NCBI GenBank assembly: GCA_903813345.2
Contig: CAIIXF020000012.1
Coordinates: 2,833,318 to 2,897,317 of the forward strand
Length of the DNA stretch: 64,000 nt
Reading direction: 5' to 3'
DNA from: Owenia fusiformis
Lineage: Eukaryota; Annelida; Polychaeta; Sabellida; Oweniidae
In this document: positions 278-47,323 of the stretch, in pieces
How the letters are laid out: every line of letters starts with the position of its first letter
Numbering within the stretch: the stretch's first letter is position 1
Program-made: the position numbers and the translations under genes
The notes under the pieces: generated by a model
What the model saw: only the letters and a program-made list of their open reading frames with translations
What the model was told of the DNA's origin: nothing
Database searches by the model: none

Positions 278-932
278 CACGATAGGGTCCAGTATAACAA
301 TTGCTTCCAGAAAGGAAATGGCGAATGAACCTAACCATTTTCCGGATTTCTCAGAACCCCATTCCAAACTGTATAGAAAGGTAAAAAAGCACGGCGCAAC
401 GATGCAACAGGCAACTAAACACCATGCAGGGAGTAAAACCCATCTTGGTAACTGAGCCTTTGGTTTATGTTTCATATCTTCGCGTTGTGTCGACAGCAGC
501 TCAGACATTGTGCATCGGTGTGATTGTTTAGTTCTTCTGAACAATTCTGATATGCATAAAGTGATTGGGTAAACTGTTGCGATTGTTAGGAAACTAGTGT
601 AGAATTCATGCCAGCTGACATCTATCGGTCCCATACTGAACAAGTGAATATGGGTTCCACTCTGTTCTTCGGTGTTGTACCACATCGCGCTTGATATCAT
701 CATTAGGCATAACATACACATGCAGACAGATAACCTTTGTGTCCTCGTAAAGCGGCTACTTCCTGGTTTCCTCAGTAGTGACATCACAAGATGCCGTTCC
801 ATGACTGCATTTCGTGCCTGTTTGTTCAGCTTTTCACTATAACTATTATCATTTCCGGTTTCCGCTAGCAGACGATCAATTTGTCCATCACCTTTCTTCA
901 ATGACAGCCATTTGTTGCATTCAAAGACTTGG
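278..932 (-). CDS. Receptor exon: post-PLAT linker and membrane segments 2-5
   Basis: 655-nt exon, phase 2 in and phase 0 out, between a TTTTAG acceptor (933-934) and a GTACGT donor. It encodes about 218 residues. A linker with CNKWLSLKKGDG comes first, then LVMSLLRKPGSSRFTRTQRL, the family signature before helix 2. Four hydrophobic segments follow: VCMCMLCLMMISSAMWY, FLTIATVYPITLCISELF, WVLLPAWCLVACCIVAPCFF, and the one after SLEWGSEKSGKW that ends LEAIVILDPIV. The SLEWG..KS..WL motif is characteristic of the polycystin-1 family. An antisense 79-aa reading frame at 216-455 is a shadow. Confidence 0.9.
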
Positions 933-3900
933 CTAAAATTAAAGGAGTATATTTTTTCAACTATGTATTTTCATATTTTCAGAACTTCGAGTCACTATTT
1001 ACAGACTGTTAGTCTCGTCAAAAACTAACTCGGAATGTAACTTAAGTGTTGCAATTAAATAAGATAAATGATGTTTGGAGAATTTAATTGGATAAAAATA
1101 ACAGAAATTAGTTAATGTCAATGAATAAGTTAAAATGAGAAAAATATCTTACCACTGTTCAGTAAAAATCGACTGGATGACAATACGTTCAAGATACCAA
1201 TGATTATCTCTACCACTGTTGTCATGCCAAACTCTGATGTAGAGAATGTCTCCTAGCTGCCTGTCAGTTGTAAACACAAAATTGTCAAGGCAACCCGAAC
1301 GAAGAGCCTAAAACAGAAGTTGTTGCGCTTGACAACAAAAGACTGTGTACGATGGTGTAATAGGAATGGTTTGTTAAATGTATAATGTGAAGGAGACCTG
1401 GAAGGCTGATAATCATTATTTATTTATTATAAAGTCAAAGTTAAGGTTGTGTTACATTGTAGTGTATATAGAATCTCTCGGTGCTAGCTACACACTTAAA
1501 TATTAAGAGTCGTATATATTTTATCTCTAAAAAATCAACACGTGTTCTTCACCAGAAAATAGGGTTAGCAAAAATACCAAATGAATGCAGGTGTTGTTTG
1601 CAAAGGTGTAAACGTTTTTATGCCCGTGAAGACTTAAAATTACATCGATGCAAACAGAAAGTGACAGATGTCAAGACGGTTTTCTGATCAATAGGACAGA
1701 GGGCGTTAATTAATGCGAGATCAGTTTCAACGCCTTTATGTGTCAACTGGACGCCTCTAGAATTAACAGCTTCGCAGGCGTAAGTTATGTCCACGTATTT
1801 GACATTTTATATCTGTACGGTCGGAATCTAACATCTGCAAAAATGCGCAAACAATGGGTGTATACTTGGCATGTCCACCAACCATAATAAAGTGAATTGA
1901 TTATATACAAGTTACACCAAGTGTCTGCATAAAAACAAATTTGGTACTCACCGCCACTTTTCCGTCAGTGAGTTTTCTAGGCCCTGAATCGGCCATATCA
2001 CCGTAGAGTTGAAAGAAACAATTGGCGTCAGTACCAGCCTTGTATTTTGACCCAGTAAATACGTGTATGGTGTATTTGAATTGATCGTTCGAGTCGTTGT
2101 CTGCCAACTGTCTATATTGCCTCTAAAAATTAGGATTTCAAGAAAACGAGTGCAGATTACAGGAGTTTATAAAGCAGTTAAGGTACTCAATTCAAAGAAC
2201 TATCTAGTATTTGGATGTGTCTAGCGTATTGTTTACTTGCCCGATTGTGTATAAATGTATAAAGCATTTGTAATATTATTTAACACTTAGATCAAGCTCA
2301 TGATTGCAGAATATGGCAAAGACTTACTGAATCATTCTCCCTTTTGTCCAACCGTCTTGCGAGAATCATCAGGATAATGTAGAAGACAATAAGAATGATG
2401 ATAGTCACTAAAACAGTATAACTATCGGCCAATCTAGTGTCAAAATCACTGAACACTGAGATAAAATCTATTGTATTCGGAGGTACGAATAGTTTTGCAC
2501 TGAACGAACCAAAGAACTTACTCCTGAATAATATGTTCTTCTTGGTTGATGTATTTGAAACCTAGAAAATCAAATTATTGTATAAGGCATACTTTACATA
2601 CATCATCTAACATTTGCTAACAATAAAATTAGCATTATGATTGATTCAATTGAAGGTAGTATCAGATCTAGTAAGCTGGGAAGTAGTATTCCGGCTATTA
2701 AGATTCTTTTCAATTTTAGAACATTTTGGGCTCATATCATGTCTTGTCATGTAATCTTTTCTAAAAATCCATGTGTATACTTTATTGGAGGACAACTACA
2801 CAATAATAATTACAATAATGCATTTCATATTTTTATAATATATTTTTAACATTTTAGAGTGTAAGGAATACATTGGTAAATCAACTGCACATCTGACTAA
2901 CTGGCACTTTTTTCAATCCATAAAGATCTGATTTTGCCTTTAACAATTCATATATTTGTATATTGCTGAGTGAATAAGCTTGTCAAACTGATTGGTTAAT
3001 GGAAACATAGAATTAAAATCCATTCAAGGGCTAATGTGAAAAAGTCAGTCCACCCAAACAATGAATGCAATTATAGATACACAAGGAGGTATGTCGATTA
3101 CTCAATTAGTACACAATCAATACTAAATTAGCATTCATGCCACGAGTGCTAATTTAGTACTAATTTTGTACTAACTGAGTACTCGGCATGTTTATGAATG
3201 CTCATTGAGTAATGAAAAATCGATGAAATTAGCGCTAATTTACCACTCATCACATGAGTACTCTTTTTATACTAAAACATGCAATAAATCAGTACTCATG
3301 TCATAAGTGCTAATTTAGTACTAATAATTACTGAAATGAGTACTCAGTTAGTGCCAGAATGCCATGAGTACTATTTTAGTACTCGGCATATCTCACTGTG
3401 TAGTTTATATAGAAACGATGTCGAACAACCCAATTCGTTCATTCATCTAGTCTTCAGCTTTTATTTAAGGAATAAATAATGATAGGCCATTCAATATGGT
3501 GAAATTCAGCACGAGTTGGACAGAATGTTGTACAAAGCACGAACCGAAGGTGAGTGCATTTGTACTAACATTCTGTCCAACGAGTGCTGAATTTCACCAT
3601 ATTGAATGGCCTATCATTATTTATTCCGATTCAAACATAAAAATTAGTAAAAGCCGTGTCTGTTGAACGGGCATGAAGGAAGAATACGCATGCTGTCAAG
3701 ATTCTGAAGTCGGCCGGAAAAATTTTAGAATTTGTTTGGGCTGTTCTATTTTACTCCCCGTTTTAGATTTTATACGATGTATGCAAACATGGGGTGTTGG
3801 TAAAATAAAATAGTTAAGGAGGGAGTAAAAAAGAACAGCTATCCCCGGACAGAGCCCCAGATGTGCAGCTGAGATGTGACGTCACTCAAAACAATGCAAA

Positions 3901-6900
3901 TTGCAGATTGAATAGAGCATGGTCGTGCATCTATGGAGAATTAGAGAACGTTCTATATTGGCTATGCTGCATTCTGATTGGTTGAGAAATTCGAATAGAG
4001 CACGGTCATGTTTGAATTGGATTTTAATCATCAATATGTATGTTTCAATATGAATTTATCTCTATTAATTGTAAAAACCTTACCTTAGATGTGGCGGCTA
4101 CCCAAGTGTTCTCTCTGGCGTCCCATTGTATAGGCTCTATAGCCAATATGCCAAAGTCATACATAGTTGAGTTTAGATTCGTCTTATTCCAACCTTAATC
4201 AAATCATATACAGGGCGACATGGATATACATGTACATCAACTTAGGACTCATGCATGCAGATTTTTGACCATACCGGATTTTCTCGCATATAAACCCTGG
4301 GCGTATAACTGAAAGAAGGGGTAATTTCGTCTGTTATTTTACCTCTTATTTTTCGCCCATGGGCGTATAAGTGTTCTACTTTCGATTTTTCGCCCAGTGG
4401 GCGTAAAGGTGAGAAGAGCTGATGAATACGATGGACTACCGTACCTACTGTTGTAGTCCTACTGCATGTTTTGTAAGATTTATAAAGGAAATGTCACCTA
4501 CAACCTTGGACTTAATGTTGAAACAAAGTAACAACAGAACGATCCACCACTGCCACTTACGGCACAGCTTTGAACTTAATGTTGAAACAAAATAACGACA
4601 GAACGATCTGCCAGTGATAAAATACTCTTGAATTTATTGAAAAAATCAATAAATAGTCATTTTTTATAGGCCCATGGGCGTATAAGCGTACTACATTCGA
4701 TTTCTGGCCCATGGGCCTAAATTTAGGGGGGCGTATATGCGAGAAAATCCGGTAAGTATTATTATAATTATTGTGAAGATCATCCAAGTAATCACATGAT
4801 AAATGTGTCATTATCATCATTGAAGAGATCGTCCAAATAATCACATGATTAATGTGTCATTATCATCATTGAAGAGATCGTCCAAATAATCACATGATTA
4901 ATGTGTCATTATCATCATTGAAGAGATCGTCCAAATAATCACATGATTAATGTGTCAACATCATTGAAGAGATTATACAAATAATCACATCATTAATGTG
5001 TAAACATCATTGAAGAGATCGTCCAAATAATCACATGATTAATGTGTCAACATCATTGAAGAGATTATACAAATAATCACATGATTAATGTGTCAACATC
5101 ATTGAAGAGATTATACAAATAATCACATCATTAATGTGTAAACATCATTGAAGAGATTATTCAGATAATCACATCATTAATGTGTAAACATCATTGAAGA
5201 GATTATACAAATAATCACATCATTAATGTGTAAACATCATTGATGAGATCGTCCAAATAATCACATGATTAATGTGTCAACATCATTGAAGAGATTATAC
5301 AAATAATCACATCATTAATGTGTAAACATCATTGATGAGATCGTCCAAATAATCACATGATTAATGTGTCAACATCATTGAAGAGATTATACAAATAATC
5401 ACATCATTAATGTGTAAACATCATTGAAGAGATTATTCAAATTATCGCATCATTAATGTGTCAACATCATTGAAGAGATTATTCAGATAATCACATCATT
5501 AATGTGACCGTTTTGAGAAATTATGTTTTTTTGATTTTACATATGCAAATTGATATTATAGTATAATAATGTAACATCTTACCATTTGCCTCTATGGTAA
5601 CATACATGCTACCTCCACTTTGTTCCCCATTACTTGTTACTACTAACGTATTATTAGTAACATCAGCCTTATCAAGTACTTCTCGTTTCACTCTTGAAGA
5701 TGCTCCAAGAACAACTTCTTTCTCAAAATTGTCTGACGTAGGTTGTGCTCCGGTTTTCATCCTAATATGAAATGACAATTCTTGATTTATATTGAAACCT
5801 ATAAACCAAGCGTTCGTCCGGGTTGTTATAGGAAAACTGTATACAGCCCTTGAGTTTGGTTCCAATACAGTCCCCCTTTGCATTTCGGAAAAGACTTTAT
5901 GCTTTAGTATATTTAAAGATATTTCAAAGCCTTCATCTTCGTTAGTAAAGTCGTCTTCAAGTTCCACCATTTGATCACCATTCGGATTAAAAATAGCCAA
6001 TGCTATGACTGGAAGATCTGCTCCATTGCACGACCCTGTTGAACAATTGGTGGCAGCAGTGGCGATCTGAATGGAATATGAAAAGGCCATGTGAATTAGC
6101 CTACAGATACTTTGGTATATAACCTTGATACACAATAAATGTACAACAAAGCGTTTTACTAAACAGAGAAAAATGAAACATCTTCGAGCTCAACCAAACG
6201 AAAAAACGCAACTAATATCCCAACTTCGATCTTATACTAACGATTCTTTAGCTATTGAAAAATCAATCACAATCTGTTTGATGAAGTACTTACAACTGGA
6301 GTTTGGCCAATACCCCATTGACCTCTTAGTGGTGGAATCTTTACAAAACCAACGGAATTCTCCAGGTTTACAGTTGTTCCTATATCCTTCTTGGTAGTAA
6401 CAATCTTTCTGTTTGAAATGTCAACTGAAAATCCCGTGTCAGCCTCCAAGATCTTTTTGTCCATAATTGGAGATGTTTCATGAGGATTTATGGGTGTTTG
6501 GTTTGAATCCACCGTTGTTGTTGTAGGAATTATCATGGGGGTTGTATTTGTTACTGTAGATTTCGTTGCACTCTTTACAGAATCAGTAGTTGTGATGGTT
6601 GTTAGAATAGGTGTTGTATTGTTGGTTGTAGGTGTTGTGGATGTTATAGATATTGTGGTTCTGGGTGTTGTTGATGAAATAGGTGTTGTTCTAGAAGTTG
6701 TTGTGGTTGTAGTTCCAGTTGTGGTTGCAGGTTCAGTAATTGTGGCTGTAAGTTCAGTTGTTTTAGTTGTAGGTTCACGTGTTGCGGTTGTAGGTTCAGC
6801 TGTTGTGGTTGCATGTTCAATTGTTGTGGTTGCAGGTTCCATCATTGTGGTTGCAGGTTCCATTGTTGTGGTTGTAAGTTCAGTTGTTGCGGTTGTTTGT

Positions 6901-39900: not shown

Positions 39901-42900
39901 ACATCGGCCGGGCTATGTGACTAGGCCATAATGCCTGGGTCACATTTGCTCCGATTCATCGGCCGGCGCCCGGGCGATTTTAGTGTTTTGTTCAATATTG
40001 TATTCAATTTTGAACAAAATACTCGATCGGCCGGGCGCCGTAGTGAAAATCGGAGCAAATGTGACCAAGGCATTAGTTGATACGTTCAGAGTTTAATTTT
40101 TCATGTTACTTCTTACTCTTGTATTCTAAGAAGCAACAGCTTTTTGCTGGTTCACAACCTTCAAAAATTCCTCCCACCCACCACACCCTTGTTATGTTGT
40201 GACTGTACAATTAATGTAGTCGGGCAGCTCACATATTTAACTCCAACGTTTAACAATAAACATTATAAGTAGGTCAAACTGTGAGCTATCGGGCCAAAAC
40301 GTGTTTTAACGTTGTTTGTATGTTTTATTTTGTGTTCAATTATATTATGTTTAATGGTTGACTGTTTACTTTATATTTTTTTCAATTTATTTTATGACCA
40401 TGTAATGTAATTAATATAGCAATCGAATAATGTATAATTGATTGTAAGTTATAACTACCAAACAGATAAAATGTTTATACAGGGTGTCAAATAAGTCCCG
40501 TCCCCCTGCTACAGCTAAAGCCTTAACAGACGATACATAGTGTGATATACCATTGGAAAGATCATCCAAAGTTATGTTAACTCACCAACTATCAAGTATT
40601 TTGGATTAAATTTACCTATATTTATATGATGTCTTTTATAGTTAACGTGCCCTCCTTTAAGTACACTCCCCTCCATAAGTTTGGCAACCTTTTTCCACCA
40701 TTGAACTACGTGTTAAAGCCTCTTTACGTTTGAATTTTTATTTACTTAACCGGCGATGAAATGACTTATAATATTAATGGAAACGTAACTTGCCTTTATT
40801 TCCAATACCTTCAAATTTTCTCAAATTTTTTCCACAATTACAATAGGTCGAAAATTGATGATAAATTTGATGAATTTTTGAAAATCGTCATTCCCATGTA
40901 ATCCAATGGGAAATGAAGGGTTCGGGGCAAATCAGAATATCTTTTCAGTAAAAGATTCAGCAAAAAATATTTTGATATAGAAAATTGAATTGTCTAACTT
41001 TTTTGAACACTAAGTGTTTAGTTTATTTGATGAATATTAAAGTTACAGCGCTTCAAAGTCATTTTTGAAAATAATTTTTCGCCTCCTGTGTTATATCAAT
41101 GGGAGAGGTTTTTGAAAAACAATTTTGATTTTAAAGCCCTATAACTTTGTTGAACCTGAAGAAACATATCAATTTTTTGTTAAATAAAGTTAGCAAATTC
41201 AATTGCCTGCCTAACTCGTATTTTTTGCAAGGACTCGGGTGTATGGATATTCTGTCATATGACTTGCGGCAAACCTACCATTTCCCATTGGTTAACATGG
41301 GAATGTCGATTTTCAAAAATTCATCAAATTAATCATCAATTTTCGACCTATTGTAATTGAGGAAAAATATTGAGAAAATTTGGAGGTATTGGAATTAAAG
41401 TCAAATTACGTTTCCATCAATAGTATAAGTATTTTCATCGCAGGTTAAGTAAATAAAAATTCAAAGGTAAAGAGGCTTTAACACGTAGTTCAATGGAGGG
41501 GAAAAGGTTGCCAAACTTATGGAGGGGAGTATAGCTTTTTGCGTAAAAATGACAAGGATATGACCTCAGGAATACGTCAAAAAGTTAATCTTTTTCGCAT
41601 TCCCCTTGTTACAAAAAGGATTTCACCACTTTCCTTGCACCTCTATTTTCTACACATCTAACCCTATTCAGAAATTGGTTAAATTCATTGCCATAAACAT
41701 ATTCAGTCATCTTTTGGTCCCTTGACCTTTCTTATACCCGATTCTTAAAATCCTGCCAAATGCGCCAAATCGCAATGTTTCTATTGATACAATGTAAATT
41801 TTGTGAGATTGATTGACATGTGTCAGATATATGCCTTTCAACGTAACTTTGGAACACCTTTTCAATGATGTATCACACTTGGTACAAAATATCCTGGTTT
41901 TGGCTGTAGAGGGGGGGGGGGCGACTTATTTGACACCCTGTATAAGGTCACTTTAAATAAATTATAAACTAGATTTTAACCACTCTTTCTTAGATACGTA
42001 TCGGAGTAATTTTTAAAACACTTTCGTTCAATTTGAAGCAAGTTGAAATTTGACCTTGGAAAATTGAAATTGCAATTTGACTTTTTCAGTTTGAGGTCTA
42101 ATATCTCAAAAGGTTTAATAGATAGTTCATTGTTCATACATAGGTGTAGAAACTTTACATGAATGTATAAAGTGACTTTAAGCCTAAAATATTTGTAATC
42201 CAACCTGTCCAATTTTTATCCAAAATTAAAAAGAAACGTAAAATGACAACATCAGGATGAATTTACTGATCTGAAAGCTTGCAAACATCCCAAAAAGCTT
42301 CAACTTTCTAAAACTAAAATCAAATGATAATTCTATGCTTCGAAATAACTAACCAGCTACTAGATGTCCCTGTAAAGCATGTGTGCTCCTTATGTTTGGC
42401 AATTGAGAAATGTCAATTGTGCCCCCAGTTGCCAAGTCCTGTTCAAAGATATTAGTGTTTTTCGTATCAAACAGCTCAGGTTCTGTCACTACACCATCGT
42501 TGCCTCTAGAGTCGGATACGATACCGTCAAGGTCATACTTGTCGTAATGGATCCCTATGAAATCACTCTCATTTACGGGAATAGGGGGGTTGACTTCATA
42601 CCAGATCTTACCTAGAGGCAAACGGAATATATTTTTGTACTGTTGGGGTTAAAAATGTACAGTTGCTTACATTCAATGGTCTCTAATTTTCACTCTTGTC
42701 AATTAACGTGGAAAAACAACTTACACTCCCCTCCATAAGTTTGGCAACCTTTTTCCCCCATTGAACTATGTGTTAAAGCCTCTTCACGTTTGAATTTTTG
42801 TTTACTTAACCGGCGATGAAATAACTTATGATATTGATGAAAACGTAACTTGACTTTATTTCCAATACCTACAAATTTTCCCAATTTTTTTCCTCAATTA

Positions 42901-45900
42901 CAATAGGTCGAAAATTGATGATAAATTTGATGAATTTTTGAAAATCGTCATTCCCATGTAATCCAATGGGAAATGGAGGGTTCGGGGCAAATCAGAAATC
43001 AGGATATCTTTTCAGTAAAAGATTCAGCAAAAAATATTTTTATATAGAAAATTGAATTGTCTAACTTTTTTGAACACTAAGTGTTTAGTTTATTTGATGA
43101 ATATTAAAGTTACAGCGCTTCAAAGTCATTTTTGAAAATAATTTTTCGCCTCCTATGTTATTTCAATGGGAGAGGTTTTTTGAAAAACAATTTTGACTTT
43201 AAAGCCCTATAATTTTGTTGAACCTGAAGAAACATATCAATTTTTTGTTAAATAAAGTTAGCAAATTCAATTGCCTGCCTAACTCGTATTTTTTGCAAGG
43301 ACTCTGATGGACGGATATTCTGTCATATGACTTGCGGCAACCTACCATTTTTCATTGGTTAACATGGGAATGTCGATTTTCAAAAATTCATCAAATTTAT
43401 CATCAATTTTCGACCTATTGTAATTGAGGAAATTTGGAGGTATTGGAATTAAAGTCAAATTACGTTTCCATCAATAGTATAAGTATTTTCATCGCAGGTT
43501 AAGTAAATAAAAATTCAAAGGTAAAGAGGCTTTAACACGTAGTCCAATGGGGGAAAAGGTTGCCAAACTTATGGAGGGGAGTGTACCTGTTTGTCAATGG
43601 ACTGAATGCCAATATGTTATATTGTGGCAATCTTGTTTTCAAACTGAGTTGTAGACCCATTACAGTAATTTTTAAACATTTCACCCCTTGGGCATTTCAC
43701 CCCTAATTTGTTCACCCCTAAGATGTCTCACCCATTAGACATTTCACGCCCTGAAGTTTCACCCCCAGACATTTGACCCTTAGACGTTTCACCCCTTAGA
43801 CATTTCATCCCCAATACATTTCAACCGATTGACATTTCACCTCTTGGACATTTAACCATTTAGACGTTTCATCCCTCCCTTGACATTTCACCCTCAATAA
43901 TTATTACACTCTATGTTACATAGCAAAAAATGAAACCACTGAATCCTGGAGGTAAAGTTCATGCGCTTGAATCCTGTATGATCCTTGCTAACGTACAGAA
44001 TTCGCAGTTTAAATAAGCGGGGGAGAAATTAAGATTCATTTAAATCCAATTAAAATCCATGAATAGCCCAAACTGTGAAATGAAGTATACCTATATATAC
44101 AAGCGTGAGTGTGAAACGCTCAAGGGCTGAAATATCCATCAGGGGATGAAACATCAGAGGGATGGGAACTTCAGAGGTGAAACTGTCAAGGGGTGAAACG
44201 TTCAAGGGGGTGAAACTGTCAAGGGGGTTAAACGTTCAAGGGGGTGATACATTCAAGGGGGTGAAACGTTCAAGGGGTGACACATCTTGATAACCAGAGT
44301 ACATGTATAGGGATAAATACTAACAGTTGTGGATTGAAAGGCAAAAGTTCAGTTGAGTTTTGTTTAATAGACCTTTCCTCTTGAAACAAAGTTGGAAGAA
44401 AAATTGGGTTTCTGTCATTTAGTAATAAGCGGAAAATTTACACTACGAAACAGATTCATTCATTTTTGCAATTCCTTTGGAAATCTATGAATTCTTCTTT
44501 CTTAAAATGAAAAAGTATCATACGAATCATAAAATACACTGACCACTTTCATGCAATAAATCTGTTTGCTTCGAGTCACATAAAACTATGGACATTTACC
44601 TGCAGCAGCTGGTGGTAGAGCAGTTTTGGCAATCAGTGTATATTTGTTGTCATTGTCTATACGCCATATCCCTATGTACGCTGTGCCAGTGGGGCGATAT
44701 CTGAAATATAACGTAATCGTTTCTTAAGTAATATTAATGTTCTTTATTGTTCGATATATTTTAGCCACTTTCTACAAGAAAAGCATGGAGATAATGGAAG
44801 GAGACATACAAAAAGTTGCCTAAAAGTTAACTGCATAAGAAAAACACACACACATTTTGCATCTACTTTTTAGTTTTAAAGTTTAGATAACTAGATTACC
44901 AATGGATATAAGTATTAAAACTATAAAACCATATCCCTCTATTAAAGTATTCACATAAGACATATTATTATTGTAGAAGAGACCTTTAATCATTTTCATT
45001 AAATCACTTTATTTTCTCAATTATGTACAAGATCATACTTTACAAAATAACACGTACACTTTTTATAATATTTAACAAATCATTGTAAATGCCATTATGT
45101 GGCACCTAATACTCCCTCTTGGGGGTCATAGCCACTAAAACCTGTAAATATGTTACATTGATTTTAATAAATAAAGAAAAAAAATTAACAAAATCACTCC
45201 ACTAATAGCAAAAACATTTAATAACAAATATAAAAATGTCAGTCGTTTATCTAAATGGCTGCCCATTAGCCAAACTGTCATTAGGTAATACTTTTGTTAT
45301 ATTCTTCTAATTGTTCACAATGTAAAAATTTAATAAAATCACTCGGTTTTCCAGAATTTCCAGAATCATATATCCTCTTACAATACTCACATATCTCACA
45401 AAATAAGTTAAAATATCAACTGTTATGCAGTACGTAAGTTATAAAGCTGCTATGATAATACTGTGAAATCATAATTACTTTTATTCATGGATTACTGAAT
45501 CTAACGTCATAGTTGACGGGCCCTTGCAATTACATAATTTCATCAAATTGACCGACCAAGATAGTGTGAAAAATGAAGAACTTAGAAGAGAAAGGAGAAT
45601 TATTAGGATATCAACAAGGTATTAACAAAGAAGTGTCTACGTATGGTATGTTCTAACAGTGTTTCAAAACTTAAAAGAGAAACTTCGAGGAGTGCATTTA
45701 GCTTGGGTTATCCTGAACCCTGGATTTGGGAGTCAATAATTCCAAAATTTGGAAAAATCCAGGTAAAACACCCCTTAGAAAATGTGCCCCGTGTGTGAAG
45801 ATCGAAGGATGGTTATGACCCACTAACTTTAATTTTTGTTATAGACACTATCTTAATAATGTTATCTGTAGGCAAGATAGGTACACTCCCCTCAATAAGT

Positions 45901-47323
45901 TTGGCAACCTTTGCTCCCCCATTGAACTACGTGTTAAAGCCTCTTTACGTTTGAATTTTTATTTACTTAACCTGCTGTGAAAATACTTATACTATTCATG
46001 GAAACGTTATTTGACTTTATTTCCAATACCTCCAAATTTTCTCAATTTTTTCCTCAATTACAAAAGGTCGAAAATTGATGATAAATTTGATGAATTTGTG
46101 AAAATCGTTATTAGAGTTAGCCGGACAGGTGGATAGTTCGATAGGATACAATAATCTTACCTAAAGTATTCCCAAGCCACTACGTAACCGGCACATGCGA
46201 ATGTGTTGTCCGTCATCAAATGGGCCCAGTTGCCCCCTCTACGTGGAAGATCTGTGGGATTTCTACCAATCACCTTTGGACAGGTCTCTGGAGTGGAACA
46301 GAAATTTAATTATGAATTCTAAGAAGAATGACTGAAGAAATCATTACTCTCAAAATATTTGGTGTTACTGTAAATACTGTCTGGTATTTCATAATACATA
46401 TGTTTTGAACATATATACAGTTTGGAACAAAACAAATGACAGGTGGATTTTCTATCACCATATCCAAACCATAGTGTTTTGAAAGCCCAATAGTCTCAAA
46501 TATTGTCTAGATACATATCCCTTAAAATTTGTATATTTTACATTTTGTATACTGTCATCCACTGATGCACGACCTCTTGAAAAATTCTCTTATTTTTAAC
46601 ATTGGAAATCCTCACTTCAGCAAATCCATGTGTCATTATTTTTGTTCCAAACTGTAGGTCTACATCTACAAATTGATCTACTTAGCAAGTCACAGTGATA
46701 ATGTCCAAATAGTGACTGTCATTGGGGGCAAAGGGTAAATTATTTCCCCGAGGGAATATCCTCAAAAATGTTCTATTTCCGAAGCCGCATACAAATAGTA
46801 ATTCTATATTATGGCACGTGACCATGATTGACCAATCAAGATTAGTGTTACATATTTGGTAAATAATAATAAAATATATCACCCATTTTTATTTGCTATG
46901 TAGGCTTACTTTGTAAACAACACCCTGGAATGCTATAAAGATGTAGAACTGGTGACGTGTACTGTATACCAGAATTACACTTTTTTATTTGGCGCCCATC
47001 TACACTGCACTCTGCTATACCTTGCATTTGGTGTTCATGAGCAACCCATTTGGCTTATTAGTAATGATTATGTATTTGTTTTTATTTGTCTGTTCCTTAT
47101 TAATGGTTTATCGGTTGGATGTTAGACGTTACCAAGGCACTTTCAAAAGTATCTTAAACAATTCAATTAGACAAACAAAATATCTTATGCATTTCTAGGT
47201 GTTAGGTATAGTAGAGTGATCTAAAAAGTGCTAAAAACACGCACAATACTCACCTTCAAGTGAAGAATCCGTCGCTAGACTCAAATACAAAATTACAAGA
47301 CTAACATAATCTAAGTAATCCAT
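278..47323 (-). CDS. Polycystin-1-like receptor gene (multi-exon, 3' part beyond left edge)
   Basis: Gene-level entry joining the minus-strand exons listed separately. The membrane half is diagnostic of the polycystin-1 family: a GAIN-like region, a first membrane segment ending in ARRLDKRE, a PLAT domain with YTIHVFTGSKYKAGTDAN and LGDILYIRVWHDNSG, then SRFTRTQRLS and TFLYSLEWGSEKSGKWL. Polycystin-1 proteins are large 11-pass receptors that pair with TRPP channels; remaining helices would lie left of position 278. The ectodomain is unlike vertebrate PKD1: signal peptide, an unrecognised domain, four CBM14 modules, microexon linkers, two PAN/Apple domains and a Thr-rich stalk, all joined in phase. 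From the ATG at 47323 the exons sum to 4596 nt (1532 codons) with no stop. Family assignment is firm. Whether the CBM14 and 42-47 kb exons belong to the same transcript is inference from strand, order and phase; separate neighbouring genes are the alternative. Confidence 0.72.
1153..1307 (-). CDS. Receptor exon: second half of PLAT domain
   Basis: 155 nt, phase 0 to 2, with TTTTAG acceptor and GTAAGA donor. It encodes residues including FVFTTDRQLGDILYIRVW followed by HDNSGRDNHWYLERIVIQ. The LG.L..IR.WHDNSG core followed by a W-L-ER segment is the conserved second half of PLAT/LH2 domains in polycystin-1. In polycystins this cytosolic beta-sandwich lies between membrane segments 1 and 2. It joins in frame to the exon at 1952-2122 upstream and 278-932 downstream. 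Confidence 0.9.
1952..2122 (-). CDS. Receptor exon: first half of PLAT domain
   Basis: 171 nt, phase 0 to 0, bounded by TTTTTAG and GTGAGT. It encodes RQYRQLADNDSNDQFKYTIH, then VFTGSKYKAGTDANCFFQLY and GDMADSGPRKLTDGKVA. The Y.I.V.TG....AGT.A...F.L.G....S..R.L pattern is the N-terminal half of a PLAT domain, in the place expected directly after the first membrane segment of polycystin-1 proteins. Confidence 0.92.
2328..2561 (-). CDS. Receptor exon: degenerate GPS region and first membrane helix
   Basis: 234 nt, phase 0 to 0, acceptor TTTTCTAG, donor GTAAGT. It encodes a juxtamembrane stretch with KKNILFRSKFFGSF, then KLFVPPNTIDFISVFSDF, then a hydrophobic helix (VLVTIIILIVFYIILMIL) and the cytosolic stop-transfer ARRLDKREN. 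The VPPNTIDF motif and the helix plus ARRLD are hallmarks of the region following the GPS in polycystin-1 and PKD-REJ proteins. The canonical Cys-x-Cys-x-His-Leu-Thr is absent: the aligned positions read N-I-L-F-R-S-K. See findings. Confidence 0.88.
2990..3055 (-). repeat. SINE 3'-part fragment
   Basis: Read on the minus strand, this begins GGTGGACTGACTTTTTCACA and continues to a CCCTT block and a CTATGTTTC motif. The same order occurs directly after the tRNA-like region at about 50924-50975, so this is a body and tail fragment of the same SINE without its tRNA head. Confidence 0.6.
3082..3404. mobile_element. TIR element (MITE) with AGTACT-rich interior
   Basis: The left end reads ACACAAGGAGGTATGTCGAT; the reverse complement of the right end reads ACACAGTGAGATATGCCGAG. 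That gives an imperfect terminal inverted repeat with TA at both ends. The interior is built of alternating TAGTACT/AGTACTC words and is itself near-palindromic. No coding capacity. Non-autonomous, possibly TA-targeting. Confidence 0.6.
3474..3630. mobile_element. Snapback MITE
   Basis: Two arms of about 60 nt are nearly perfect reverse complements: the left contains TGATAGGCCATTCAATATGG and the right contains CCATATTGAATGGCCTATCA. They are separated by only a few tens of bases. No coding capacity. Confidence 0.75.
4084..4193 (-). CDS. Receptor exon: C-terminal GAIN-like segment
   Basis: 110 nt, phase 1 to 0, donor GTAAGG. It encodes (G)WNKTNLNSTMYDFGILAIE then PIQWDARENTWVAATSK. The order of a hydrophobic strand (FGILAIE) and two Trp-containing segments matches the region just N-terminal to the GPS in polycystin-1 proteins. 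The acceptor (TTGATTAAG) is weak, but it is the only choice that keeps phase with the upstream exon. Confidence 0.7.
4274..4754. mobile_element. TIR element of about 480 bp
   Basis: Begins ACCGGATTTTCTCGCATATA and ends TATATGCGAGAAAATCCGGT, a near-perfect 20-nt terminal inverted repeat. The interior repeats CCCATGGGCGTATAAG-type words. It lies in a receptor intron. The 95-aa reading frame overlapping 4557-4844 is fortuitous. Confidence 0.75.
4780..5512. repeat. Minisatellite (about 45-50 bp unit)
   Basis: About 16 copies of a unit containing AATAATCACATGATTAATGT and CATCATTGAAGAGAT. Early units are about 50 bp with an extra TTATCAT; later units are about 45 bp, and two sequence variants (GATCGTCC and GATTATAC) alternate. 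The array ends about 70 bp from the splice donor of the next exon (5582). Confidence 0.9.
5583..6066 (-). CDS. Receptor exon: GAIN-like extracellular domain
   Basis: 484 nt, phase 0 to 1, acceptor CCATTCAG and donor GTAAGA. It encodes 161 residues of mostly beta-strand character, including NCSTGSCNGADLPVIALAIF, RAVYSFPITTRTNAWFIGFN and GSMYVTIEANG. Its position between a Thr-rich stalk and the VPPNTIDF segment fits the GAIN domain of polycystin-1 proteins. Sequence resemblance alone is modest. Confidence 0.75.
6294..7252 (-). CDS. Receptor exon: Thr-rich mucin-like stalk
   Basis: 959 nt, phase 1 to 0, acceptor TGTTTCAG and donor GTAAGT. Roughly the first 220 residues are low-complexity repeats of the type TTTEPTTT / TTATEP, a probable heavily O-glycosylated stalk. 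The last 100 residues are ordinary sequence (for example ILEADTGFSVDISNRKIVTT) leading into the GAIN-like domain. The complementary strand is open for 262 codons (6490-7278), a Val-rich shadow of the ACA/ACT codons. Confidence 0.85.
7560..8200. repeat. Minisatellite (about 128-148 bp unit)
   Basis: Five diverged units carry GTAGATGATTTTGAAAAA (near 7622, 7763, 7911, 8039, 8168) and GGTCAATTTGAAGCAAGTTG. It lies in the intron between the stalk and second PAN exon. A related fragment (CAATTTGAAGCAAGTTGAAA) sits near 42030. Confidence 0.85.
8487..8768 (-). CDS. Receptor exon: PAN/Apple domain 2
   Basis: 282 nt, phase 1 to 1, acceptor TGTTTCAG, donor GTCAGT. It encodes (S)SGICEGKYIRWNVTRN and then TTKKVLYACFEDCLARKDCV, SVSYNQNKGRCFLFNE and DQYEYTCVD. 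The C..DC....C....Y....C.L.... arrangement is a PAN/Apple fold, a small disulphide-bonded module that binds protein or carbohydrate. It is a symmetric exon, hence removable or duplicable without a frameshift. Confidence 0.8.
9002..9226 (-). CDS. Receptor exon: PAN/Apple domain 1
   Basis: 225 nt, phase 1 to 1, acceptor ATTTCTAG, donor GTATGT. It encodes QQYQVMPNSCDNSTTPSKDL then ETQDNCIRTCNNADNCTAIE, IYKDRCRVFTISEED. The C.....L......C...C.....C.A.......C pattern fits PAN/Apple. It joins in frame to PAN 2 (split codon TCC). Confidence 0.78.
9230..11800. other. Long intron without recognisable genes
   Basis: AT-rich sequence between PAN 1 and the 11.9-kb signal exon. I see no module resembling the other exons. 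The 110-aa minus-strand frame at 10931-11263 is Lys/Ile-rich, lacks domain signatures and looks fortuitous. Confidence 0.4.
11808..11910 (-). CDS. Candidate alternative first exon: signal peptide
   Basis: ATG at 11910 opens a 34-codon frame: a short polar start (MEIFNSFITQGCLRSS), a hydrophobic core (LTGFFALCCLWQ) and AAGTGA before the splice donor GTACGT (last exon base 11808). A second donor, GTGCAT, would end the exon at 11814. Both give phase 1, matching the PAN 1 acceptor. It would start a receptor lacking all CBM14 modules. It could be the true start of a separate gene. Confidence 0.6.
12535..12628. repeat. Short tandem repeat, 33-bp unit x about 3
   Basis: The unit contains TTTTCAATCTGGAGTCTAAT followed by AATAAGAATACAG. 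There are nearly identical tandem copies. Confidence 0.85.
12716..12865 (+). pseudogene. Non-LTR retrotransposon reverse-transcriptase fragment
   Basis: The plus-strand translation includes VFVDFKQCFHKIDRAVWRKL and ITGKILNCIKN, followed by SNAKPC. It resembles the F.D..KAFD.V....L...L...GI.G..L..I...Y motif of LINE reverse transcriptases, with the catalytic-site neighbourhood and everything upstream missing. A decayed fragment. Confidence 0.65.
13040..13066 (-). CDS. Receptor microexon 3 (27 nt)
   Basis: Acceptor TTTTGTCAG, donor GTAATA, phase 1 to 1. It encodes (D)SSTFSTEN. It is near-identical in layout to the microexons at 20710 and 21516. Its last base is T instead of G, and it has the weakest donor of the three. 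Confidence 0.6.
13070..14550. other. Intron, no recognised content
   Basis: AT-rich DNA without convincing exons or clear TIRs. The region around 13197-13330 has short direct words shared with other introns but no boundaries I could define. Confidence 0.35.
14555..14725 (-). CDS. Receptor exon: CBM14 module 4
   Basis: 171 nt, phase 1 to 1, acceptor TTCCAG, donor GTACGT. It encodes VCPSPSAYVPHPTDCSSFYQ, CSDSIPSLEQCISGLHFSP and TLNTCDWPESAGCTAG. Six cysteines in the order C-C-C-C-C-C, with the aromatic FYQC motif and CDWP, identify a chitin-binding type-2 (peritrophin-A/CBM14) domain. Secreted or surface CBM14 domains bind chitin or related glycans. Confidence 0.88.
14990..15700. mobile_element. 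Possible TIR element
   Basis: Near the left end, GCAAAATATTTCCCATGATG lies opposite a right segment whose reverse complement reads TCAATATTTTCCCACTATGC. Both are followed inward by a GCGAAC/GCGAA word. It may be an old inverted-repeat element. The exact ends are unclear. Confidence 0.35.
15795..16498 (-). pseudogene. Non-LTR retrotransposon, C-terminal region, frameshifted
   Basis: Two adjacent minus-strand frames together look like the end of a LINE ORF2. The first (16498-16220) has LNWPKPETRRKFHRLTLMFK and VPSYVQNYL, typical of the thumb region after the RT. The second (16193-15795) has RSEEISLNWIRVNIFFQSYF and a zinc-knuckle-like CKCGFKNETSKHVIFNC. A frame change near 16200 and a G run at about 16315 interrupt it. 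Not functional here. Confidence 0.75.
17069..17239 (-). CDS. Receptor exon: CBM14 module 3
   Basis: 171 nt, phase 1 to 1, acceptor TTCCAG, donor GTACGTAC. It encodes VCPSPFANVPHPTDCSSFYQ, CSNSIPSLKQCISGLHFSP and TLNTCDWPASAGCSAG, a complete six-cysteine CBM14. It is closest to module 4, from which it differs at few codons, so the pair looks recently duplicated. Confidence 0.88.
17555..17755. mobile_element. Foldback element
   Basis: The left arm contains GGATATCCTATGATTTTGAG and GAATATCATCTACGAGGTGA; the right arm carries their reverse complements (TATCACCGAGTAGATT, AAAATCATAGGATG). The loop holds GAGAGCGAAGCGAACGAG. The ends resemble GTGTAGGATA. Confidence 0.6.
17822..17926. repeat. Three tandem near-palindromes
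   Basis: Three copies of a CGGAGTATATCGTCACGATA-TCCTCCG-type 27-nt inverted repeat lie within about 100 nt, separated by short spacers. Each could form a hairpin. Confidence 0.75.
18559..18625. mobile_element. End of a G-run TIR element
   Basis: CCAGGCCCGTAGCCAGAATT is followed by long G runs. The same CAGGCCCGTA start occurs at 24591 as one end of a larger element. No matching right end was found nearby, so this is probably a truncated copy. Confidence 0.45.
19599..20394. mobile_element. TIR element, copy 1 (CACCAAACTAGTT family)
   Basis: Begins TGACACCAAACTAGTTCTTA and ends ACTAGTTTGGTGTGA, flanked by TA on both sides. An internal copy of the terminus (TTTGGTGTGATAGC) near 20000 suggests a composite or dimeric structure. 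The interior is rich in GTTCGT/ACGTC words. There is no transposase. A second, inverted copy is at 59849. Confidence 0.75.
20710..20736 (-). CDS. Receptor microexon 2 (27 nt)
   Basis: Acceptor TTTTTCAG, donor GTATAG, phase 1 to 1. It encodes (D)ASTPSTEN(G). It is a Ser/Thr linker of nine residues, paralogous to the microexons at 21516 and 13040. Confidence 0.65.
21516..21542 (-). CDS. Receptor microexon 1 (27 nt)
   Basis: Acceptor TTTTTCAG, donor GTATAA, phase 1 to 1. It encodes (D)SSTSSTEN(G). The shared splice signals, exact length and conserved STEN end across three copies argue against chance. Confidence 0.65.
21580..22095. repeat. Tandem repeat, about 107-bp unit x 5
   Basis: Each unit contains TAGTTCAGTTATCCATGGGA, TGCTGTTCCCTCATCCTCCA and GTGAAAGAGGTGGAG. 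It lies just upstream (in receptor sense) of microexon 1. The last unit is most diverged. Confidence 0.9.
22100..22920. other. Intron, nothing recognised
   Basis: Unique-looking AT-rich sequence between the 107-bp repeat and CBM14 module 2. The small reading frames here show no domain features. Confidence 0.35.
22923..23093 (-). CDS. Receptor exon: CBM14 module 2
   Basis: 171 nt, phase 1 to 1, acceptor TTCTAG, donor GTACGT. It encodes VECPSPSAYVPHPTDCSSYY, HCSNSIPSLQQCISGLHFSP and TLNTCGWPASAGCSAG. All six cysteines are present; CDWP has become CGWP. Confidence 0.88.
23138..23182 (-). pseudogene. Fragment of a CBM14 exon
   Basis: About 40 bp (including GAAGACCCGATATACACTGC) repeats the central part of the adjacent CBM14 exons, without splice sites or the rest of the module. 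It is a remnant of duplication between modules 1 and 2. Confidence 0.65.
23538..23708 (-). CDS. Receptor exon: CBM14 module 1
   Basis: 171 nt, phase 1 to 1, acceptor TATTTCAG, donor GTACGTG. It encodes VTCPSPSANVPHPTDCGSFY, QCSESIPSLKQCTPGLHFSQ and TLNICDWPANAGCASEMG. It is the most diverged of the four but keeps six cysteines and the CDWP motif. It is the first CBM14 met by a transcript starting at 31.6 or 47.3 kb. Confidence 0.87.
24018..24420. mobile_element. Long foldback element
   Basis: Arms of about 140 nt: the left contains TTTCACTGCTTCATTTCGTC and CCATTGTGCAATAATATATG; the right contains their reverse complements in mirror order. The short loop encodes nothing recognisable, and small frames here are fortuitous. 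Confidence 0.8.
24591..26559. mobile_element. G-run TIR element with internal tandem repeats
   Basis: Starts CAGGCCCGTA and ends ACGGGCCTG, with GGGGTGCGG-type runs just inside both ends. This resembles hAT-like non-autonomous elements. The interior is about five diverged copies of a unit of about 350 bp containing AAAATTTTACAATTTTAAGA, TCTGGGCACTTTAAAAGTGT and blocks of GGGGGTGTCAAAGGGGG. No transposase was seen. Confidence 0.65.
26576..26900. repeat. Duplicated segment, copy A (pair with 38590)
   Basis: Contains GTCACGATACCATTGGTAAC, AATGAAAATGGTGGCATGGC and two tandem units with GACATGGCTAATTTATGATA. The same order occurs at about 38590-38945, with three units. Confidence 0.75.
26937..27357. 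repeat. Segment paralogous to 46680-47060
   Basis: Shares CCTTGCATTTGGTGTTCATG with about 47018 and, at 27236-27357, GATTAGTGTTACATATT and AATAATAATAAAATATATCA with 46840-46900. It is part of the duplicated block that also carries the signal-peptide exon at 31.6 kb, now split by a 4.1-kb element. Confidence 0.65.
27890..28307 (-). CDS. Unknown ORF inside the 4.1-kb transposon
   Basis: Minus-strand open frame preceded by a splice-acceptor-like CAATTACAG at 28308. The ATG at 28302 gives MPKAKDRGDKPNGPYMRKAL, then an acidic stretch (ELVDDEDLDVSREE) and FEIKEKIANFFMIGHIFMTK. The composition (charged N-terminus, amphipathic helices) looks protein-like, unlike the surrounding AT-rich frames. I do not recognise it. 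It could be an exon of a transposon protein or captured host sequence. Confidence 0.35.
28420..31140. other. Interior of the 4.1-kb element, no recognised genes
   Basis: AT-rich sequence with scattered short reading frames on both strands. None shows a DDE or DDD catalytic layout, a zinc-finger run or splice structure I would defend. Confidence 0.4.
31544..31613 (-). CDS. Signal-peptide exon, copy B
   Basis: ATG at 31613 opens MDYSDYVRLIILCLSLATES, then SLE and a split Gly/Val/Asp codon at the donor GTGAGT (31543). It is 70 nt and phase 1, a clear signal peptide (RLIILCLSLA core) with cleavage probably after the Ala-Thr-Glu region. It is paralogous to the exon at 47254-47323. Spliced to CBM14 module 1 it yields an in-frame receptor without the 42-46 kb domain. 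Confidence 0.7.
31614..33330. other. Upstream region of exon copy B; otherwise unassigned
   Basis: About the first 550 bases parallel 47324-47880 (for example TTGACCGTTTTCCCATGTAG and AATAAGCGTTTGAACA), so this is the possible 5' UTR and promoter of the duplicated exon. Beyond about 32200 I see nothing coding. CAGGGTGATCCCAAAAAGGT and CAGGGTCACCAAAAAAAGAA near 32897 and 33024 resemble TE ends. Confidence 0.45.
33340..34300. repeat. Left arm of a 4.7-kb inverted repeat, with 145-bp tandem units
   Basis: Six units of about 145 bp carry GTCATCACGATTCCAG, TTCACACATGTTACATGGTA and GCCATCTTGCATTCTGGC. The outer part (33340-33520) matches 37830-38030 inverted, so the two arms bracket 34.3-37.3 kb. 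A 97-aa frame here and its 77-aa partner at 37838 are the same non-receptor sequence in both arms. Confidence 0.8.
34594..34653. repeat. Element carrying ATGTCACCACCAC, interrupted by the L1-like insertion
   Basis: TTATGTCACCACCACTAGTG and a nearby GGGTGACATA also occur, slightly changed, at the right window edge (63940). The continuation of the sequence resumes at about 35919, after the LINE. Confidence 0.5.
34669..35903 (-). mobile_element. 5'-truncated L1-like LINE insertion
   Basis: Minus-strand frames (with frameshifts) give TMMFKFIWAKGKFKEEDLKK, ILVQGYDCGGLKMINCKDLH, ENGDGHWRAIPEYMYGKLGK, WNQLFKCTSDTGLLSIQWKI and LCKLCNEVDNIEHFF: the post-RT and C-terminal zinc-knuckle part of an L1-type ORF2. 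The plus-strand T run at 34669-34681 is its poly(A) tail. It is flanked by a perfect 15-bp duplication, CACTGTTCAGTAGTT (34654-34668 and 35904-35918). Truncated and frameshifted, so not active. Confidence 0.85.
35919..37270. other. Interior between the inverted arms
   Basis: AT-rich. A stretch at 36940-37020 (CACCATGTGTCACCCCATTG, TTTCTATCAATATAAAA) is a diverged copy of 37255-37320, so the interior contains relatives of the arms. No genes recognised. Confidence 0.4.
37280..38030. repeat. Right arm of the 4.7-kb inverted repeat
   Basis: Inverse of 33340-34300: four units of about 145 bp with AAGATGGCCGCCAGAATGCA and CCATGTAACATGTGTGAAAA, then the outer segment with CTTTTGCCCCTGTTTACATC. No coding role is evident. 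Confidence 0.8.
38060..38585. other. Unassigned intron sequence
   Basis: No exons or inverted repeats I can defend. It lies between the 4.7-kb inverted repeat and a duplicated segment. Confidence 0.35.
38590..38945. repeat. Duplicated segment, copy B (pair with 26576)
   Basis: Matches 26576-26900 (ACTAGTCACGATACCGTTGG, ATGAAAATGGTGGCATGG), with three tandem units of about 105 bp carrying GACATGGCTAATTTGTGATA. Confidence 0.75.
38996..39135. mobile_element. GC-rich MITE of the TAATGCC family (diverged)
   Basis: The left part (GGTCATATTTGCTCCGATTT, GGCGCCCGGGCGATTGAGTA) and right part (ATCGGCCGGGCGCCGG, GCAAATGTGACCC) are inverted and match the element at 39929-40075. Confidence 0.7.
39254..39930. 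mobile_element. GC-rich 0.68-kb TIR element
   Basis: Left end TAATTGCCTAGTCACATAGC followed by CCGGCCGATG; right end GCCCGGCTATGTGACTAGGC-like in inverse. The interior is densely built of CGGCCG, GAGCTC and CATCGGCCGG words, very unlike the AT-rich surroundings. Open frames on both strands (up to 136 codons) result from the GC content and are not called as genes. Confidence 0.7.
39929..40075. mobile_element. 147-bp palindromic GC-ended MITE
   Basis: TAATGCCTGGGTCACATTTG at the left and CAAATGTGACCAAGGCATTA at the right form a nearly complete palindrome with CGGGCGATTTTAG/CGATCGGCCGGGCGCC arms. It abuts the 0.68-kb relative, so one inserted next to the other. Confidence 0.85.
40478..41942. 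mobile_element. Outer TIR element (TACAGGGTGTCAAATAAG), host of a nested element
   Basis: Ends TACAGGGTGTCAAATAAGTC and GCGACTTATTTGACACCCTGTA are inverted and flanked by TA, as expected for Tc1/mariner-type insertion. A separate TIR element (40664-41531) is inserted inside. No transposase remains. Confidence 0.8.
40664..41531. mobile_element. Nested TIR element, CACTCCCCTCC family copy 1
   Basis: Starts CACTCCCCTCCATAAGTTTG and ends CAAACTTATGGAGGGGAGTA, TA at both flanks. Long arms (for example CGAAAATTGATGATAAATTT and its inverse) make most of it a foldback. Two further copies are at 42724 and 45884. Confidence 0.88.
42354..42611 (-). CDS. Receptor exon: unrecognised ectodomain, part 3
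   Basis: 258 nt, phase 1 to 1, acceptor GCCTCTAG, donor GTTAGT. It encodes (G)KIWYEVNPPIPVNESDFIG, then IHYDKYDLDGIVSDSRGNDG and STHALQGHLVAG. Beta-rich and secreted in character. It joins in frame to 44600-44700 upstream and can splice to any phase-1 module downstream. Confidence 0.72.
42724..43583. mobile_element. TIR element, CACTCCCCTCC family copy 2
   Basis: Starts CACTCCCCTCCATAAGTTTG and ends CAAACTTATGGAGGGGAGTG, TA flanks, colinear with copy 1 over its length with small indels. It lies about 110 bp upstream (receptor sense) of the exon at 42354-42611. Confidence 0.88.
43680..44285. repeat. Inverted pair of 20-bp minisatellites
   Basis: The left arm (about 43680-43900) repeats TAGACATTTCACCCC-type words; the right arm (about 44105-44285) repeats GTGAAACGTTCAAGGGG, its inverse. 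Between them is about 200 bp of ordinary AT-rich sequence. It could fold into a very large hairpin. Confidence 0.8.
44600..44700 (-). CDS. Receptor exon: unrecognised ectodomain, part 2
   Basis: 101 nt, phase 2 to 1, acceptor TATTTCAG, donor GTAAAT. It encodes (R)YRPTGTAYIGIWRIDNDN and KYTLIAKTALPPAAA. YIGIWR followed by a short loop and YTLI suggests consecutive beta-strands. No antisense frame competes. Confidence 0.72.
44705..45880. other. Intron, nothing recognised
   Basis: AT-rich sequence without defined repeats or exon-like modules. Confidence 0.35.
45884..46110. mobile_element. TIR element, CACTCCCCTCC family copy 3, truncated
   Basis: Starts CACTCCCCTCAATAAGTTTG after TA and follows copies 1 and 2 for about 220 bp. 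It then stops abruptly about 50 bp from the splice donor of the exon at 46161. Confidence 0.85.
46161..46287 (-). CDS. Receptor exon: unrecognised ectodomain, part 1
   Basis: 127 nt, phase 1 to 2, acceptor CACTCCAG, donor GTAAGA. It encodes (E)TCPKVIGRNPTDLPRRGG, NWAHLMTDNTFACAGYVVAW and EYFR. Spliced to the signal exon at 47254 it gives SSLEETCPKV. The pair of cysteines and the VVAWEYFR strand recur as a unit with parts 2 and 3, together about 161 residues. Confidence 0.72.
46680..47250. repeat. Duplicated block around the signal exon, copy A
   Basis: Paralogous in pieces to 26937-27357 and 31456-31543 (GATTAGTGTTACATATT; TTTTTTATTTGGCGCCCA). It lacks the 4.1-kb transposon present in the other copy. 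Confidence 0.65.
47254..47323 (-). CDS. Signal-peptide exon, copy A (most upstream start)
   Basis: ATG at 47323 opens MDYLDYVSLVILYLSLATDS, then SLE and a split codon at the donor GTGAGT (47253). It is 70 nt and phase 1. The hydrophobic core VSLVILYLSLA is a typical secretory signal. It joins in frame to the exon at 46161-46287. The flanking upstream DNA (TTGACCGTTTTCCCATGTAG) is shared with copy B. Confidence 0.75.

Follow-up and report, generated by a model that had tools for sequence, protein, structure and literature searches.

Polycystin-1 ectodomains and CBM14 modules

The ectodomains of polycystin-1 proteins are variable and often bear lectin domains, as exemplified by the sea urchin SpREJ proteins (PMC1934368, available part). 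According to the same part of that paper, the SpREJ proteins and the human PKD1 family have polycystin-1 bodies, as does the gene described here, joined to ectodomains that differ in make-up (C-type lectin, SUEL, WSC); REJ is absent from human PKD1L3 and GPS from SpREJ10 (PMC1934368). Most members of this family retain PKD repeats, REJ and GPS, and the available part of the paper describes neither CBM14 nor PAN domains among them (PMC1934368), whereas the gene described here has none of the former and would have PAN and, probably, CBM14. Among the matches listed from the open-access literature, in the portions of text available, no polycystin is described as having CBM14 or PAN.

The ectodomain of Caenorhabditis elegans LOV-1 is presumably Ser/Thr-rich and mucin-like, without PKD repeats, and to our knowledge contains neither CBM14 nor PAN. 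LOV-1 is likewise a polycystin-1, with 11 transmembrane (TM) segments, a PLAT domain and a TOP domain, but it has a GPS cysteine needed for ciliary localisation, whereas the gene described here has no GPS cysteines (PMC9829181, available part). Within the annelids, Platynereis PKD1-1 is also of polycystin-1 type and is needed, together with PKD2-1, for the hydrodynamic startle response (PMC6294549, available part).

Peritrophins and other CBM14 proteins have the same six-cysteine modules with a tryptophan as are seen here, arranged in a tandem array behind a signal peptide (for CHIT1, see PMC4844120, available part). The CBM14 proteins in that part of the paper are enzyme-linked or single-domain, whereas here the modules are in phase with a polycystin, and the CHIT1 module binds chitin when its six cysteines are intact, with the help of an exposed Trp (PMC4844120). 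The CBM14 modules described below are putative chitin binders, and the one Trp in each may be the counterpart of Trp465 of CHIT1.

An intact polycystin-1-type gene

The window, that is, the whole stretch of 64,000 nucleotides that was analysed (C12:2833318-2897317), comes from a genome of which 498 Mb in 525 contigs were searched. The erythrocruorin-linker domain, a mark of annelids, has three matches in it, one of them with a stop, which suggests an annelid. An intact polycystin-1-type gene lies on its minus strand. The 3' part of this gene ends 3.8 kb to the left of the window edge, with the six last exons outside the window and the stop codon at C12:2829546. The earlier note had given the gene a span of 278-47323; position 278 is a donor site, from which the gene runs on to the stop codon just mentioned, whereas 47,323 does mark a good signal-peptide exon. 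The exons of the body that fall within the window are as follows.

1952..2122, minus strand: PLAT exon 1 (Pfam PLAT)
1153..1307, minus strand: PLAT exon 2 (Pfam PLAT)
278..932, minus strand: polycystin-1 TM region after PLAT (PDB and Pfam matches)

The proposal that the membrane half is polycystin-1 was borne out by the spliced body, which matches the Pfam families PLAT (E 1.9e-17), Polycystin_dom (1.2e-43) and PKD_channel (1.8e-28) and for which the top PDB matches are polycystin-1 (3.9e-60), covering most of the body in two stretches, and polycystin-2 (4.5e-51). The PLAT domain sits shortly past TM1, as in the PKD1 family. Simple hydropathy analysis gives 12 peaks, including two overlapping pairs that bring the number to ten (the PKD1 family has 11 TM segments), and the pore region reads L-G-H where the aligned polycystin-2 has L-G-D.

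On the left flank, trefoil and GH31 C-terminal exons on the plus strand belong to a gene convergent with the polycystin gene, whose 3' end it faces. The plus strand at window 55341-58124 carries RRM-like and RGG-rich exons that we take to be an apparent RNA-binding or initiation-factor gene; the one exon scanned gave no Pfam match. A retroelement reverse transcriptase (RVT_1 2e-16) is located to the right of the window at L003:1888-3327, on the minus strand.

CBM14 modules, PAN domains and a mucin stalk

Upstream of the body, the following exons would make up the ectodomain as far as the mucin stalk.

23538..23708, minus strand: CBM14 exon c1, 171 nt, phase 1-1 (Pfam over cut-off, 23551-23703)
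22923..23093, minus strand: CBM14 exon c2, 171 nt, phase 1-1 (Pfam over cut-off, 22936-23088)
17069..17239, minus strand: CBM14 exon c3, 171 nt, phase 1-1 (Pfam over cut-off, 17082-17225)
14555..14725, minus strand: CBM14 exon c4, 171 nt, phase 1-1 (Pfam over cut-off, 14568-14720)
9002..9226, minus strand: weak PAN-like exon, phase 1-1 (PAN_3 E 0.11, below cut-off)
8487..8768, minus strand: PAN/Apple exon, phase 1-1 (PAN_1 E 1.3e-6, over cut-off)
6294..7252, minus strand: Thr-rich mucin stalk exon (composition)

The CBM14 exons are real, intact and under purifying selection. The spliced N-terminal half matches the CBM14 profile in four stretches (E 1.4e-51), each module has one Trp and six cysteines whose spacing is the same in all four, and the pairwise dN/dS is 0.15-0.33 in all six of the pairs among c1-c4. 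The earlier note's four in-phase CBM14 modules thus all stand, each over the Pfam cut-off and selectively constrained. All four exons end in a G/GTACGT donor, and c4 seems to splice onward because its donor is identical to those of the other three modules. Outside this locus, c1 and c2 are most similar to CBM14 modules on C11 (60-62% identity for the best five). A 199-residue open frame with many charged residues (window 27850-28449, minus strand), which has no Pfam family, is located between the CBM14 exons and exon B (see below).

As for the two PAN/Apple domains that had been proposed, one is over the Pfam cut-off and the other is weak, being recognised by the cysteine spacing that it shares with the clear PAN (x3, x5, x9 or x11, x27); a low-confidence single-sequence fold of this second exon (pLDDT 61) gave no PDB match at E 0.001. 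The mucin stalk is as previously described, its exon comprising 262 residues, of which 45% are Thr and 139 are Ser or Thr. An ectodomain without the PKD, LRR and WSC domains had also been claimed, and in agreement with this, a Pfam scan of the spliced protein (mucin stretch excluded) gave no PKD, REJ, LRR, WSC or GPS at E up to 0.1. As controls, the same scan found PKD repeats upstream of all three paralogues scanned and REJ upstream of two of them.

Loss of the GPS motif

Between the mucin stalk and the PLAT exons lie three further exons.

5583..6066, minus strand: GAIN-like region exon 1 (position and resemblance to two paralogues)
4084..4193, minus strand: GAIN-like region exon 2 (in phase; acceptor weak)
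2328..2561, minus strand: degenerate GPS and TM1 (GPS cysteines absent, H-L-T absent)

The GAIN-like region is identified by its position and its resemblance to the equivalent part of two paralogues, with which it shares 18% and 15% identity. Its first exon matched no Pfam family, and the structure predicted for it (pLDDT 50, three-row alignment) gave no PDB match at E 0.001.

The reading of the ectodomain in the earlier note can be upheld in part, and to it we add the loss of the GPS motif. When aligned by eye with its paralogues, the GPS site of the window gene reads NILFRSKFFG and contains neither cysteines nor H-L-T. The equivalent sequences of five paralogues are CLCNHLTSFG, CLCTHLTNFG, CECTHLTSFG, CDCDLAETPAF and CKCKKANRDIG: Cys-x-Cys is kept in all five and H-L-T in three, whereas the window gene has kept neither. 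In control scans GPS was found in the C3 paralogue (E 1.4e-8) and fell just below the cut-off in the C9 paralogue. The polycystin-1 paralogues at C1:24.05 and C7:19.50 Mb have the GPS cysteines but lack H-L-T, so GPS cleavage may have been lost more than once in this genome. In C. elegans, mutation of a single GPS cysteine in LOV-1 leaves the cilia of ray neurons without its C-terminal part (PMC9829181, available part). Taken with the missing motif, this analogy suggests that the window polycystin-1 would be uncleaved at the GPS and trafficked by another route.

Comparison with other polycystin loci

Fourteen polycystin loci, including this one, were compared with 67 CBM14 clusters drawn from at least 131 hits (150 of 337 candidates scored), with distances measured from the matches taken as locus ends; the weak PKD_channel matches at C10:17531757 and C9:27008354 were left aside, as were two small contigs, C194 and C151. 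Among the matches listed, the 71 kb upstream of each of the 13 other loci hold no CBM14 cluster on the same strand, whereas here the distance is 12 kb. Among the 14 loci compared and the CBM14 matches listed, CBM14 adjoins a polycystin at this locus alone. Such an adjacency would arise by chance with a probability of about 1-2% over 14 loci, a figure calculated after the fact. The sole other locus with a listed same-strand CBM14 cluster less than 100 kb upstream is on C9, where the two lie 71 kb apart (C9:7882654-7883301 against C9:7790114-7811174).

The ectodomain DNA was read at three of the 13 other loci (C9:24.95, C1:24.03 and C3:17.83 Mb) and in part at two more. The C9:24.95 and C1:24.03 Mb paralogues have PKD repeats and REJ upstream, and the C3 paralogue (C3:17829000-17858999) has, in order, PAN (PAN_1 6.7e-9), F5/8 type C (1.3e-14), PKD repeats, GPS and PLAT, with the PAN and F5/8 type C exons sharing the strand of the GPS-TM1 exon and lying about 25 kb 5' of it. 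Judging from strand and distance, these upstream exons would belong to the respective polycystin genes. The C3 paralogue shares an upstream PAN exon with the window gene but differs from it in its F5/8 type C exon, its PKD repeats and its canonical GPS, and in having no CBM14 nearby.

The same-strand PAN upstream of the C3 polycystin rules out the idea that PAN is unique to the locus described here, and in this genome PAN thus seems to be an older element of the polycystin ectodomain. No relatives of the particular PAN exons of the window gene were found elsewhere in the genome. The PAN on C3 comes from a list for which 150 of 436 candidates were scored, and near the C1 polycystin there are two more, about 5 kb away and on the opposite strand.

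Start exons and the CDG domain

Two signal-peptide exons, and three exons of a domain for which we coin the name CDG (its beta-sandwich fold is a guess), lie upstream of the CBM14 modules. Exon B and the CDG exons are additions to the earlier note, whose start at 47,323 is that of exon A.

47254..47323, minus strand: signal-peptide exon A (MDYLDYVSLVILYLSLATDSSLE; donor score 8.1; ends phase 1)
46161..46287, minus strand: CDG domain exon 1 (80% identity over 36 residues to a C6 protein segment)
44600..44700, minus strand: CDG domain exon 2 (phase 2 to 1; homologues on C1, C2 and C6)
42354..42611, minus strand: CDG domain exon 3 (59% identity to C6:25978960-25979220)
31544..31613, minus strand: signal-peptide exon B (MDYSDYVRLIILCLSLATESSLE; a diverged duplicate of exon A, immediately 5' of the CBM14 exons)

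No shuffle out of 200 was as good as exon A and a single one equalled exon B, which also has a donor score of 8.1 and ends in phase 1. The two exons share 80% DNA identity over 206 of 218 bases, with 61 of 70 coding bases equal, and the duplication takes in part of the 5' flank (window 47223-47432 versus 31514-31732). The simplest reading is that a promoter and start exon were duplicated, giving two promoters. A DNA search of the genome with exon A (very common words skipped) gave two matches, itself and exon B; that both are intact signal-peptide exons rules out the 47,323 start being a dispersed-repeat artefact.

Splicing from exon B gives an open frame of 1,984 residues from 20 exons, with 19 GT-AG introns and all joints in phase, and every one of the seven introns that separate the signal-peptide exon from the mucin exon is in phase 1. 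Splicing from exon A, which leads in phase into the three CDG exons, is also open and gives 2,146 residues. Exon A is either an alternative first exon of the polycystin gene or the start of a neighbouring gene.

The CDG domain has no Pfam family. Its exon 1 contains the motif ...NWAHLMTDN..., with the alignment to the C6 segment extending a few residues beyond the donor, and its exon 3 contains ...IPV..DFIGIHY.... Clusters of related segments lie at 25.96-26.10 Mb on C6 and at 26.40-26.47 Mb on C2. In the C6 family, a kringle (8.9e-13) lies upstream of the CDG domain, and the segments downstream of it are, we assume from their pattern, lectin-like; the one scanned gave no Pfam match.

The chances are about even that another gene, unrelated to the polycystin, begins with the CDG exons (47.3-42.4 kb), as in the C6 family. 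The relatives on C6, C2 and C1 occur at no other polycystin locus, which also leaves the CDG domain unsupported as a usual polycystin N-terminus, and the 18 kb that separate CDG from CBM14 contain repeats and no convincing exon. Against this, no terminal exon rises above shuffles between 42.3 and 31.7 kb, where 38 of 200 reach the best candidate, and the two lectin-like C6 segments have no good match downstream.

A doubtful but possible elaboration, which overlaps with the single-gene reading preferred below, is one gene with several promoters (at 47.3, 31.6 and perhaps 11.9 kb) giving isoforms that carry CDG plus CBM14, CBM14 alone or PAN alone. The open splices from both A and B point in this direction, as does the fact that these diverged copies retain intact frames, donors of 8.1 and phase 1 ends, but extracellular modules often have compatible phases of this kind.

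One gene or two?

The CBM14 and PAN-mucin-polycystin exons are probably parts of one gene. The competing possibility, which we consider unlikely, is that there are two genes on the same strand, a secreted peritrophin-like one (signal peptide at 31.6 kb, four CBM14 modules and a stop before about 12 kb) and a PAN-mucin-polycystin-1 with a signal peptide of its own at 11.9 kb. It would require the following start exon.

11808..11913, minus strand: rival start exon with signal peptide (MMEIFNSFITQGCLRSSLTGFFALCCLWQAAGTGA; 1 of 200 shuffles as good; donor score 2.2)

This candidate has a hydrophobic leader and a single genome match, itself, and an in-frame ATG is also found just 5' of the first PAN exon. 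Start-exon hits like that at 11,913 occur 3 to 6 times per 348 kb, counted strand-wise, with the candidate itself included and with hits outside recognised exons judged by hand; 0.05-0.09 would therefore be expected within the interval of the 11.9 kb candidate. A strict scan (hydrophobicity 2.2, donor >2) finds two start exons and misses that at 11.9 kb, but this is no evidence of absence because relaxed thresholds reveal it. A signal peptide followed by CBM14 modules alone would also have the typical look of a secreted peritrophin or chitin-binding protein, the closest relatives of c1 and c2 are the CBM14 proteins on C11 and not a receptor, and at the polycystin loci compared there is PAN without CBM14 in one case and CBM14 nearby in none other than this.

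What tells against separate genes includes the 3' end that the first of them would need. In the shuffle test (six intervals, 200 shuffles), the best candidate for a terminal exon within the 5.3 kb that follow c4 was reached by 33 of 200 shuffles and is thus not above chance, and c4 has the donor of c1-c3. The 11.9 kb exon has a weak donor, and the low probability of chance adjacency given above points the same way. A home-made gene finder also returned a path with a single gene, but its verdict is weak because the CBM14 exons were partly misframed, the small exons doubtful and the last exon poor.

A chitin-tethered polycystin-1?

We favour, with a probability of roughly 0.6, a single minus-strand gene encoding a chitin-tethered polycystin-1, in which a signal peptide would be followed by four CBM14 modules and two PAN-type domains, then by a mucin stretch, a GAIN-like region and the polycystin body. 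In such a protein, a single transcript would join the CBM14 and PAN-polycystin exons, the CBM14 array would grip chitin or another GlcNAc-rich matrix and the mucin stalk would serve as an extended lever. Because no GPS cut is predicted, a pull on the ectodomain would pass covalently to TM1 and on to the channel, with the polycystin-1 body presumably paired with a PKD2-type channel. The chaeta would be the likely anchor in an annelid, with the gut lining or a tube as alternatives. Use of a second promoter, at 47.3 kb, would mount the CDG domain before the same CBM14 array. Taken as a whole, the proposal of a GPS-uncut, chitin-gripping polycystin-1 that acts as one covalent lever to, for example, the chaeta, and in which promoter choice sets the ligand-binding head, is a tentative one.

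If the genes are separate, what remains is a GPS-less PAN-mucin polycystin-1, a modest variant of the family. In either event, this is a gene without the autoproteolysis site that matters in mammals and C. elegans. The natural ligands of polycystin-1 and its force path are long-standing open questions and, if the single-gene reading is true, the ectodomain would name a probable ligand, chitin, and both ligand and force path would become directly testable.
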